Of a stretch of DNA of 64,000 nt, positions 20,874-27,036 are shown piece by piece. The position numbers were made by a program, and so were the translations under genes. Below the pieces are notes generated by a model that saw only the letters and a list, made by a program, of their open reading frames with translations, ran no database searches and was not told the DNA's origin. Each line of letters begins with the position of its first letter. The stretch's first letter is position 1. Source of the stretch: a bacterium (GTDB lineage: Bacteria > Patescibacteriota > Saccharimonadia > Saccharimonadales > Saccharimonadaceae). The stretch is from assembly GCA_030530385.1 (NCBI GenBank), contig JAUMVB010000001.1, positions 98,577 through 162,576 of the forward strand. The letters are read 5' to 3'.

Positions 20874-22121
20874 ATGAATATATTGCAAAGAATTCCGCTT
20901 GCCGAAAAAATGAGACCAAAAAAGCTTGATGAAGTTATTGGCCAATCTCACCTTATTGGTAAAAATGGAATTTTACGAAAAATAATCGAAAACAAAGAAC
21001 CTATTAGCTTAATCTTTTGGGGGCCAGCTGGAACTGGCAAAACTACCCTTTCAAGAATTTTAGCGAATGAAGTTAATGCAGATTTTATTGAAATTTCAGC
21101 CGTCACTAGTGGTAAAAAAGATATTGAAAAAGTTATCGAACATGCTCGCCAAAATTGGAACCTCGGAACGCGAACAATTCTTTTTGTTGATGAAATTCAC
21201 CGTTTCAATAAATCGCAGCAAGATGCTTTTTTGCCACATATTGAAAGTGGATTGATAAATTTGATTGGTGCGACAACCGAGAATCCAGGATTCGAAATTA
21301 TCACACCTCTACTTTCAAGAAGTCGAGTTCTGTCACTCAAGCCTTTAAATACTGAGGAAATTTCGAAAATCATTAAAAACGCTCTTAAAAAAGTTTCGCC
21401 AAAAATAAAAATAGAGCCAGAAGCACTCAAACTTCTCGCTAAAATAAGTAGTGGCGATGCTCGAAAAGCGCTCGGAAATCTCGAGCTAATTTTAAATTTT
21501 GAAAAAAATAACATTACACCAGAAGTTATTAAAAATTCAATCGAAAATTCAACCTCAATTTATGATAAAAATGGCGATTCCCATTATGACACAATCTCAG
21601 CTTTTATCAAAAGCATGCGAGCCAGCGACGTTGATGCCACTGGCTACTATCTAGCTAAGATGCTAAACGCCGGCGAGGATCCAAAATATATCGCCCGCCG
21701 AATGATTATTTTTGCAAGTGAGGATATTGGTCTAGCTGGAAATGGTGCTCTTAGTTTGGCGAATTCCGCTTTTGATGCGGTTGAAAAAATAGGAATGCCA
21801 GAGGCTAAGTACAATCTATTCCATGCTGCAATAGCTTTAGCAAAATCTAAAAAATCACGTGAAGCTACTGGAATTATGTTTCAATCTTATGACTTAGTAA
21901 AGAAAGCCCCAAACGCTCCTATTCCTTTACACTTAAGAAATTCTACTTCCAAAATCACCAAGGAACTAGGCTATAACAAGGGATATCAGTGGACGACAGG
22001 TTTCAAGCACCCAGAAGATAATCTACCCAAAGAGGTTCGTGAGCTTATATCTCTAGACAAACAGAATAAAAAAATCTTAGCCGGCGAATGGTCACCGGAG
22101 ATTGAAGAGCTGACCAAATGA
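20874..22121 (+). CDS. rarA: replication-associated recombination AAA+ ATPase RarA
   Basis: A 415-aa RarA/MgsA protein acting at stalled replication forks. LAEKMRPKKLDEVIGQSHLI opens the clamp-loader-like fold, Walker A is GPAGTGKT (about 50-57), Walker B is FVDEIHRF, sensor 1 lies in GATTENPGFE, and the C-terminal tetramerisation region holds GEDPKYIARRMIIFASEDIG. TATAAT ends 7 nt before ATG: leaderless. The stop overlaps the next ATG by 4 nt. Confidence 0.95.
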   Translation: MNILQRIPLAEKMRPKKLDEVIGQSHLIGKNGILRKIIENKEPISLIFWGPAGTGKTTLSRILANEVNADFIEISAVTSGKKDIEKVIEHARQNWNLGTRTILFVDEIHRFNKSQQDAFLPHIESGLINLIGATTENPGFEIITPLLSRSRVLSLKPLNTEEISKIIKNALKKVSPKIKIEPEALKLLAKISSGDARKALGNLELILNFEKNNITPEVIKNSIENSTSIYDKNGDSHYDTISAFIKSMRASDVDATGYYLAKMLNAGEDPKYIARRMIIFASEDIGLAGNGALSLANSAFDAVEKIGMPEAKYNLFHAAIALAKSKKSREATGIMFQSYDLVKKAPNAPIPLHLRNSTSKITKELGYNKGYQWTTGFKHPEDNLPKEVRELISLDKQNKKILAGEWSPEIEELTK

Positions 22122-22717
22122 CGCACAAAAGCAACAGATTAATATTGTTATTAATATTCACTTTTTACATAGTTATTCCATTTTTATTATTGATTAATCC
22201 ATTATTTTTTAAAAATAAATTCATAATTTTAGCTATCGGCGGAATTTTAATTTATATCATACTCCGATTATTAGGTTTCAACAACAGTTCCCTTGGTATC
22301 AAATCAGCAAAATCTATACAATCAATTCGAGATATTTCAATAGTAACATTTATTCTTATAATTATTGGAATTATTTTATTTAATTTTAGAATATCAAGAT
22401 TCCAGCCAAGCGAAACTCTGTCTTTTTACTTATTTTATATTTTTATATCTTCACCCATTCAAGAATTTCTTTATAGAGGAGCATTAACGAGTATTTTACA
22501 ACAAATAAATTTTCGAAAATCTTCAATCATATTAATTTCATCGATTTTATATAGCTTAGCACATTTAGGTTATAAAGATTTAATAACTTGCATATTAACA
22601 TTTCTAATTGGCCTATTGTGGCATCAAAAATATCTCAAAACCAAGAACCTCACTGGAGTAACCATAAGTCATGCAATCCTAGGAGTTATCACTATTTTTA
22701 TCGGGATTATAGATTAG
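22118..22717 (+). CDS. CPBP-family intramembrane metalloprotease
   Basis: A 199-aa protein with about six membrane helices and the CPBP/Abi motifs: QEFLYRG (Glu115-Arg119; the usual EExxxR here has Gln in place of the first Glu), then LAHLGY and ISHAILG with the histidines. Family members process CAAX-type proteins, bacteriocins or signalling factors; the substrate is unknown. It is translationally coupled to rarA and is about 1.7 kb from the 42-aa peptide gene. Confidence 0.85.
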   Translation: MTHKSNRLILLLIFTFYIVIPFLLLINPLFFKNKFIILAIGGILIYIILRLLGFNNSSLGIKSAKSIQSIRDISIVTFILIIIGIILFNFRISRFQPSETLSFYLFYIFISSPIQEFLYRGALTSILQQINFRKSSIILISSILYSLAHLGYKDLITCILTFLIGLLWHQKYLKTKNLTGVTISHAILGVITIFIGIID

Positions 22718-24165: not shown

Positions 24166-24206
24166 GGTTATATTTTACTCTATCTCTCCATTTTTTTCAA
24201 TTTTTC

Positions 24207-24235
24207 TTTACTTTTCAGTGATTTTATCTTATAAT
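24207..24235 (+). promoter_or_regulatory. promoter for the 42-aa peptide gene
   Basis: TTTACT at 24207-24212, 17-nt spacer, TATAAT at 24230-24235. The short leader contains a TAGTCT/AGACTA hairpin with TTAT loop (24244-24259) just before the SD. Confidence 0.55.
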
Positions 24236-24281
24236 TGTATTATAGTCTTTATAGACTAAATAAAAACAAGGAGACAGAAAT

Positions 24282-24410
24282 ATGTCTTTAGCTCATTTCT
24301 TAGACCCCGATAATTACGGGGAACCTGGCAACTGTGAAGACGGTGGACCTTGGCATGGAGGCACCACAGACACAGACCCTGTAGACCCCGACACCTATGG
24401 TGTCGACTAA
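24282..24410 (+). CDS. 42-aa acidic peptide, candidate processed or secreted peptide precursor
   Basis: SD AAGGAG lies 8-9 nt before ATG. The 42-aa product starts MSLAHFLDPDNYGEPG and ends PVDPDTYGVD. It is acidic, Gly/Pro/Asp-rich, has one Cys and one Trp, and contains DPDxYG twice, matched by a 10-bp DNA repeat TAGACCCCGA. It has no signal peptide. Next gene: an M16 metallopeptidase, with a terminator-like hairpin in between. A short repeated peptide followed by a peptidase suggests a RiPP-like or peptide-signal unit, but no family is recognised. The gene is nearly all hairpins: CCCCG/CGGGG at 24305, GGTG-CCT/AGG-CACC at 24342, CGACACC/GGTGTCG at 24389. A structured ncRNA is therefore the main alternative. 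Confidence 0.6.
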   Translation: MSLAHFLDPDNYGEPGNCEDGGPWHGGTTDTDPVDPDTYGVD

Positions 24411-24416
24411 TAACGT

Positions 24417-24442
24417 GGCGCCACTTATGGCGTCTTTTGTTT
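24417..24442 (+). terminator. terminator or attenuator between peptide gene and M16 peptidase gene
   Basis: GGCGCCA and TGGCGTC (one G-U) close a CTTA loop, followed by TTTTGTTT. Partial read-through would give much peptide and little peptidase from one promoter. Confidence 0.7.
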
Positions 24443-24455
24443 AGGAAAGGATTTT

Positions 24456-25619
24456 ATGAAAGCAAAAAAAATGATTATTAATAATATGGAGCTGCTCTAT
24501 ATAAAAAACTCAAACCCCAATACTTTTCATCTGGAATTCAACTTTAACGCGGGATATAATCATTCGCAAAAAACACAAGTTCCACATATTTTGGAACATT
24601 TAATTGCTACTTTTCCAAAAGAAACTAACGAAAAACTCTTAAAATTTGGCGCCTATTCAAACGCCAACACTTTCTACGAACGAACAAGATTTTTTATCAC
24701 ATCACCAAAAGAATTTTCGAAAGAATGTTTTAACATTTTAATAAATTCAATCTCAAAAATACCCAATTCTCAAGAAGATTTTGAAAATCAAAAGAAAATC
24801 GTTGAAACTGAAATTACAAATAAATCCATAAGGCCATCGATTCAAATTTTCGAAAAGGCTTTAAAAGAAGTTTTTCCTGATATAAAAGACATAAAAGAGC
24901 ATCTTAGTGAATTGGAATCTATAAATCTTTTAGACATTCAGGAATTTTATCATAAAAATTATATTAAAAACAATCTTCGAATAATTATTTGTGCTGATTT
25001 TTCAGATACCGAACTTGAATATTTTATCAAAGAAATTAATAAAATAAATTTACCATCAGGGAAAGTACCAACTACAAACCTCCCTGCAATCAACCAAAAA
25101 TGCTTTTCAACCCATCATAATTCAAAAACTATTGATGAAATCTGTAAAATTTTTCATACAGATCAACCCTTAACCGAAAAAGAACGAGCTTCATTTTATA
25201 TTTTAATGTCGTATCTTTTTCGCCCAAAAATTGGCAAAGCTTTTTTGCGAGGGAGGGACGCAGGTATTTTATATGGAATCAATTTTGAGCCTCATCTTAA
25301 CACAATCCGAGATCATCCCTTTTTCGTGATTGGTTCAAAAATTAAATCAGAAAATAAGAATAATCTCAAAAAAATAATTAATGAGGAGTTTTTAAAAATC
25401 AAAAATAGTGAAATTAACGTTCAAACTTTCGAAATAATTAAACAAAATATCAAAAATAGCGAAAAAATAACTCGCGAATCAACCGAAAGAATCGTAAATT
25501 TTTATCGTGAAGATTTTTTTACTTATGGAAGAGTTAGAAATTATCAAGAATATTTAAAAATTCTTGATAAGATATCAACTAAAGATTTAACACGTATTGC
25601 GAAAAAATTTCATTTCTAG
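24456..25619 (+). CDS. M16-family zinc metallopeptidase
   Basis: A 387-aa protein with the inverted zinc motif HILEH (His44, Glu47, His48) and a downstream ligand region KIVETEI (Glu117 or Glu119), about 70 residues later as in active M16 enzymes. FGAYSNANTFYERTRFF matches the family's GxxxNAxTxxxxTxF segment. The second, non-catalytic half is divergent. M16B enzymes cleave short peptides and leader sequences (PqqF, mitochondrial processing peptidase). No signal peptide, so cytosolic. SD AGGAAAGG lies 5 nt before ATG. The 42-aa gene just upstream is the obvious candidate substrate (inference). Confidence 0.85.
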   Translation: MKAKKMIINNMELLYIKNSNPNTFHLEFNFNAGYNHSQKTQVPHILEHLIATFPKETNEKLLKFGAYSNANTFYERTRFFITSPKEFSKECFNILINSISKIPNSQEDFENQKKIVETEITNKSIRPSIQIFEKALKEVFPDIKDIKEHLSELESINLLDIQEFYHKNYIKNNLRIIICADFSDTELEYFIKEINKINLPSGKVPTTNLPAINQKCFSTHHNSKTIDEICKIFHTDQPLTEKERASFYILMSYLFRPKIGKAFLRGRDAGILYGINFEPHLNTIRDHPFFVIGSKIKSENKNNLKKIINEEFLKIKNSEINVQTFEIIKQNIKNSEKITRESTERIVNFYREDFFTYGRVRNYQEYLKILDKISTKDLTRIAKKFHF

Positions 25620-25656
25620 CAAAATGTGATTGCAAAGTATTACACTTTTTTATATT

Positions 25657-27036
<1,380 letters not shown>

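Follow-up and report, generated by a model that had tools for sequence, protein, structure and literature searches.

The window, a 64,000-nt stretch from the 628 kb, 14-contig genome (G000) of a member of the Saccharimonadaceae, carries a two-gene cassette in which a gene for a short acidic peptide is followed by a hairpin and then by the gene for a catalytically complete M16B metallopeptidase. The pair was inserted into its locus as a unit, and the same order of genes and hairpin is found at three unrelated loci in three genomes. We favour, at a probability of roughly 0.55, the explanation that this is a horizontally acquired cassette encoding a DP-rich peptide and an M16B enzyme that acts on it, with more peptide than enzyme being produced. 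The pairing of a peptide with an M16 peptidase is in itself of a known kind, and what is new here is a pair that comes with no other genes, moves between loci and is strongly diverged in sequence. The literature outside most subscription journals yielded no paper on such a pair in Saccharibacteria.

The peptide and enzyme genes of the window

The peptide gene MSLAHFLDPDNYGEPGNCEDGGPWHGGTTDTDPVDPDTYGVD is a forward-strand ORF (24282–24410) with counterparts in two other genomes, and it encodes 42 aa with a net charge of −10, one Cys, one Trp and two DPDxYG units (residues 8–13 and 35–40). Its Shine-Dalgarno (SD) sequence, AAGGAG (24268–24273), is located 8 nt before the ATG. On the same strand a promoter-like sequence, TTTACT-17-TATAAT (24207–24235), matches 10 of 12 consensus positions, and a short stem-loop, TAGTCT-TTAT-AGACTA (24243–24258; −5.7 kcal/mol, with 11 of 200 shuffles as good), is found where the transcript is presumed to start. 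Promoter-like sites in the region are as numerous as in shuffled sequence and the site is weak on its own; its hexamers sit in pre-existing flank that is common to the empty site of genome G003, described below. Expression of the peptide from this site is a prediction. The peptide ORF has a G+C content of 0.52, against 0.28 in the A+T-rich M16 gene and 0.37 in the window.

Six nucleotides past the peptide stop, both folding and a site scan place a terminator-like hairpin, GGCGCCA-CTTA-TGGCGTC with the T-run TTTTGTTT (24417–24434, + strand; −13.4 kcal/mol, z −2.5); G003 and G055 each have a hairpin at the corresponding position. The window hairpin has more G-C pairs than the only other terminator-like site on the + strand between 22 and 27 kb.

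The M16 gene (24456–25619, + strand), with its own SD sequence AGGAAAGG (24443–24450), encodes 387 aa and is assigned by a match to Pfam PF05193 (M16_C; 6.5e-13), by its motifs and by predicted structure. The HxxEH zinc motif (HILEH, residues 44–48) and the distal Glu (E119) are invariant over 31 aligned M16 sequences, while the substrate-binding pair R267/Y273 falls in nearly invariant columns. An AlphaFold2 model (pLDDT 91.4) has a two-domain half-clam-shell form, for which Foldseek gave TM scores of 0.83–0.87 to the M16B enzymes 3HDI, 3EOQ and 5HXK; 3HDI is also the best sequence-profile match among solved structures (4.3e-27). By motifs and fold the protein is thus a catalytically complete M16B enzyme with predicted activity, and since the catalytic HxxEH/E and the substrate-binding R/Y halves are present in one chain, a clam-shell homodimer is expected. 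The original prediction had described the 42-aa ORF, promoter-like site, SD, hairpin and catalytically complete M16 gene, and each was recovered at its position. A match in charge between basic enzyme and acidic peptide was considered and dropped: the M16 proteins of the window and G003 carry charges of +11 and +15, yet equally basic charges are found in 25% (window) and 18% (G003) of the larger proteins, and the M16 fragment of G055 is acidic.

The short ORF was compared with other intergenic ORFs of 20–75 codons having an SD sequence and an ATG, taken from its own genome minus about 2 kb and from 450 kb of G003. The window peptide is a clear outlier among 44 short ORFs in its own genome, with D/E/P/G/N/Y/W making up 64% of its residues and the next ORF reaching 39%. 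In G003 the ORF located before the special M16 gene tops the 30 short ORFs (0.63), and the second (0.56) is a basic peptide. A short ORF with an SD sequence encoding a basic repeat peptide, MSKNTAGGTGPKDNSGGTGPRNGNRGK, is also present in that genome (C2:1111-1194, − strand; L144). The two-unit DPDxYG repeat has a p of about 0.004 against composition shuffles. Its two copies have D, P, D, Y and G in common across three synonymous codon changes (at D, Y and G) and differ by one replaced residue, and this constancy despite synonymous changes suggests selection on the peptide. Pfam and NCBIfam gave no match for the peptides, which fall in no known inhibitor or toxin family, and searches of 100 relatives and of plasmids gave no sequence relative of the window peptide. 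That last result is what would be expected if the ORF had arisen by chance next to an ordinary M16 gene, but since such peptides are outliers in two genomes and recur in a third, we regard chance as very improbable.

Recurrence, insertion and divergence of the cassette

In the genus-mate and sister genome G003, a 41-aa peptide gene MPNFIKFRCYCSDPEGPDSDNSLDNGYGENSDGEPTFNGYE with an SD sequence is followed, 9 nt past its stop, by the hairpin GAAGTCC/GGGACTTC with TTTTATT and then by an M16 gene encoding 369 aa, about 29–30% identical to the window enzyme; the gap from peptide stop to M16 start is 45 nt in both genomes. In G055 the sequence AGGAGG precedes a 27-aa peptide gene MIIRWENDPDDPYDDPDWLQEQAEFGK, after which come the hairpin GGGGTAGAC/GTCTACCCC and an M16 gene that has an SD of its own, is cut by the contig end and is about 20% identical to that of the window. 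G004 holds a related M16 gene (395 aa) directly behind recA with no adjacent peptide gene (L036 6810-7997). The layout is therefore known from three instances, all in draft genomes and one at a contig end. The original prediction had made conservation of the peptide frame beside M16 homologues decisive, and order, SD, acidic peptide, hairpin and M16 do recur in G003 and G055. It had proposed looking for short DPDxYG frames next to M16 genes in related genomes: the acidic peptide was found in these two genomes, the DPDxYG repeat being specific to the window copy. The three peptides (27–42 aa) cannot be aligned, and have in common only their composition, DP dipeptides and, close to the C-terminus, an aromatic-Gly.

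Among 104 M16-like ORFs in the fetched loci, with secA-linked M16s as controls, an acidic intergenic peptide ORF with an SD sequence lies upstream of three of the four M16 genes of this group and of 0 of about 100 others (Fisher p 2e-5, a value that overstates independence because the secA-linked controls are related to each other). Of the two further rows returned by the screen, one is the recA tail of G004 and the other a weak GTG frame at L193. Profile A1, searched against 394 family, 392 class and 240 phylum genomes, brought up no additional member that stood out from the background of secA-linked M16s. As members as distant as that of G055 would be hidden by this background, the apparent rarity is an upper-limit statement of sensitivity and not a count. 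A wider contig search returned the record of G003 itself, a family member and a Woesearchaeota M16 gene without the peptide, and viral contigs, plasmids and phages gave no match to the cassette. A Woesearchaeota contig (L090 1036-3465) has an M16 gene directly 3' of a 407-aa ORF with a HETSH metallopeptidase-like motif and a lipoprotein-like start. A second DNA match in the window's own genome (L002) was rejected as an oligoribonuclease gene, whose homology is with the sbcB portion of the query.

In the window the cassette is located between obgE and sbcB. The corresponding interval in G003 measures 123 bp and is an empty site without the cassette; the left-hand alignment to it (L100 4222-4344) extends to 24235 and the right-hand one begins again past about 25650, delimiting an inserted segment of about 1.4 kb (24236–25650, + strand, the right border being approximate). 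From these borders the window gained the peptide-M16 pair and essentially nothing else, and the empty site indicates that peptide and enzyme genes entered together. A near-direct 14-nt repeat (93%) flanks the cassette at 24168–24181 and 25650–25663; it is A+T-rich and possibly due to chance.

The M16 genes of the group are divergent and lie away from secA, the usual context of M16 genes, at four loci, namely obgE-sbcB in the window, beside gmk in G003, beside tsaD in G055 and between recA and recX in G004; recA and recX are adjacent, leaving that site empty, in G000 and G003. Between the window genome and G003 the secA-linked M16 proteins are 78% identical and the sbcB products 76%, but the cassette M16s only 29%. 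Either the cassettes diverge fast or each came from a varied pool, and because the loci differ we favour the varied pool. A tree in which the four M16s form one group was not rejected, with support of only 30 and long branches, and it favours neither of these two origins.

Other genomes carry different genes between obgE and sbcB. In G004 the interval (L101 6215-6877) holds another small operon, in which an SD sequence AAAGGAGG and a 51-aa peptide gene beginning MTNPFPYSTNPTGLALHI are followed by a second gene with the SD TAGGAGG encoding a 96-aa protein beginning MVFNPFEKPTPITMGDF, with a hairpin at the end. In G001 (L102 6746-8204) it is filled by two ORFs specific to the lineage, of which the first has a signal-like N-terminus. 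The interval looks like an insertion hotspot. A CPBP (Rce1-like) protease gene lies between rarA and sbcB in the window (22118–22717) and is missing there in G003 and G004, which marks it as another lineage-specific insertion. It had originally been listed as a neighbour 1.7 kb upstream of the pair, but its distance is about 1.5 kb and it is found behind the opposite-strand sbcB gene, outside the unit. With no CPBP gene near the other two cassettes either, its inclusion in the unit was dropped.

The linkage of the peptide and M16 genes is, on gene order and composition, well supported, and the recurrence of the pair with very different sequences at unrelated loci points to an M16 enzyme that acts on the peptide. 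The peptide could alternatively be an independent small protein, for instance one that binds metal through Asp-rich DPDxYG loops, with the M16 gene merely co-transcribed. The sequence DPDNYGEPGNCE is loosely like an acidic metal-binding loop and the peptides are strongly diverged, both of which would fit two separate functions; however, a pair at three unrelated loci with M16s only 20–30% identical is difficult to account for unless the two work jointly, and we consider this alternative improbable.

The hairpin and the role of the peptide

A short ORF, a terminator-like hairpin and a downstream gene, as present in all three genomes, are also the parts of an attenuator. The ORF might be a regulatory leader peptide whose translation sets termination at the hairpin ahead of the M16 gene (an amino-acid or translation-coupled attenuator), with no further role for the peptide. 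The peptide stop is close enough to the stem in the window (6 nt) and G003 (9 nt) for a terminating ribosome to cover it, but in G055 the distance is 22 nt. Folding revealed no antiterminator common to the three leaders (three sequences only), and the hairpin belongs to the best structure of each, its disruption costing 6.4–13.8 kcal/mol. Pairing of the 5' arm with upstream sequence is at shuffle level in two of the three leaders and marginal in G003, and an Rfam search gave no match. Also against a leader peptide are the M16 gene's own SD in the window and G055 and the retention of the DPDxYG residues through synonymous changes, with its suggestion of selection at the peptide level. The negative fold tests weaken this reading, although they are compatible with a ribosome-stalling mechanism, and overall we judge it unlikely.

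From the arrangement of the cassette we infer a course of transcription, termination, enzyme assembly and peptide cleavage that would give the preferred reading its mechanism. One promoter would serve both genes; the majority of transcripts would end at the hairpin after the peptide gene, leaving peptide in excess, and read-through past the hairpin would supply less enzyme. The homodimeric M16B enzyme would take up the 27–42-aa peptide and cleave it, the resulting product being set free as a bioactive peptide or else destroyed. Peptides of this length fit, because reported M16 substrates are below about 65–80 residues, PqqA having about 25 (PMC12731061). We favour, though only weakly, a processed peptide that would be used against or towards other cells.

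Strict gene pairing and an expected excess of peptide over enzyme would equally be seen if the peptide were a regulator of the M16 enzyme (an acidic pseudosubstrate or chamber inhibitor), or if the enzyme served disposal or immunity by destroying a harmful peptide, and M16 enzymes also act as degrading peptidasomes (PMC12731061). Nothing specific sets regulation or disposal apart from processing, and the peptides match no known inhibitor or toxin family; we think such a role rather doubtful.

Comparison with known systems and significance

In pyrroloquinoline quinone (PQQ) synthesis a short precursor peptide, PqqA, is paired with the M16 peptidases PqqF/PqqG. Here, however, PQQ genes are lacking and the G000 and G003 genomes have no radical-SAM match. 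AlbE and AlbF, which take part in subtilosin maturation, are like the present enzymes in being M16B proteins encoded with a small peptide and in size (366 and 381 aa, against 387, 369 and 395 aa here; PMC12731061), but differ in forming a heterodimer and in having a radical-SAM maturase and further genes at the locus, where the cassette encodes, besides the peptide, just one M16B chain carrying both motifs. Class III lanthipeptides, too, are matured by M16B enzymes of high specificity (PMC8960859). These, Bcn-gP1/gP2 and PttP1/PttP2, share with the cassette M16s the HxxEH and R/Y motifs and cut short ribosomal precursors (PMC8960859); in contrast, their motifs are split over two subunits and the precursor is modified by a synthetase, and there is no lanthipeptide synthetase adjacent here. 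The Bacillus halodurans peptidase BHP (BH2405, PDB 3HDI), an M16B homodimer (PMC12731061), has both motifs in one chain, but is about 17% identical to the window M16 in structural alignment and has no known pairing with a peptide gene. The nearest curated bacterial families by profile are YmfF/YmfH-like (NCBIfam NF047421/NF047422), of which the window M16 is not a member, with 23–69 bits against cut-offs of 250–285; in the test for the EF-P modification-associated YmfF/YmfH it fell short at 33.4 bits against 285.

The original prediction, in proposing a peptide natural product (RiPP) locus, had rightly cited M16B enzymes that mature small peptides, as the lanthipeptide (PMC8960859) and subtilosin (AlbE/AlbF, PMC12731061) systems do, and had noted that no radical-SAM or transporter gene is adjacent. 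A short precursor gene beside a candidate maturation enzyme is indeed present at three loci. No RiPP modification enzyme is adjacent, and a genome-wide search for radical-SAM families found none in G000 and G003 and one below cut-off in G055. With no modification or transport gene adjacent, no radical-SAM match and an unconserved DPDxYG repeat, the RiPP reading is weakened. No dedicated exporter is adjacent to the cassette. A heterodimeric type I ABC exporter pair (G000:C12:31801-34460) is common to most genomes of the family; a link to the cassette, suggested by its presence in G000, G003 and G055 and the lack of a strong pair in G004, was dropped, since it is equally found in G001, G002 and many further genomes that lack the cassette.

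More tentatively, and as a possibility we would not rank as probable, the cassette may represent a minimal, horizontally exchanged peptide-maturation system of epibionts resembling Saccharibacteria. Its dedicated machinery would consist entirely of one homodimeric M16B enzyme and an acidic, DP-rich precursor that stays unmodified, and its products, rapidly diversified, would act on host or competitor bacteria. For most of the widespread prokaryotic M16B peptidases no natural substrate is known (PMC8960859, PMC12731061). Here a gene for a candidate substrate stands immediately ahead of the enzyme gene, repeatedly and at different loci, which makes the question of M16B substrates directly testable. 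Should its product be exported, the cassette would also offer a candidate for a secreted peptide in very small bacteria that depend on hosts, a group for which little is known of how they act on those hosts.
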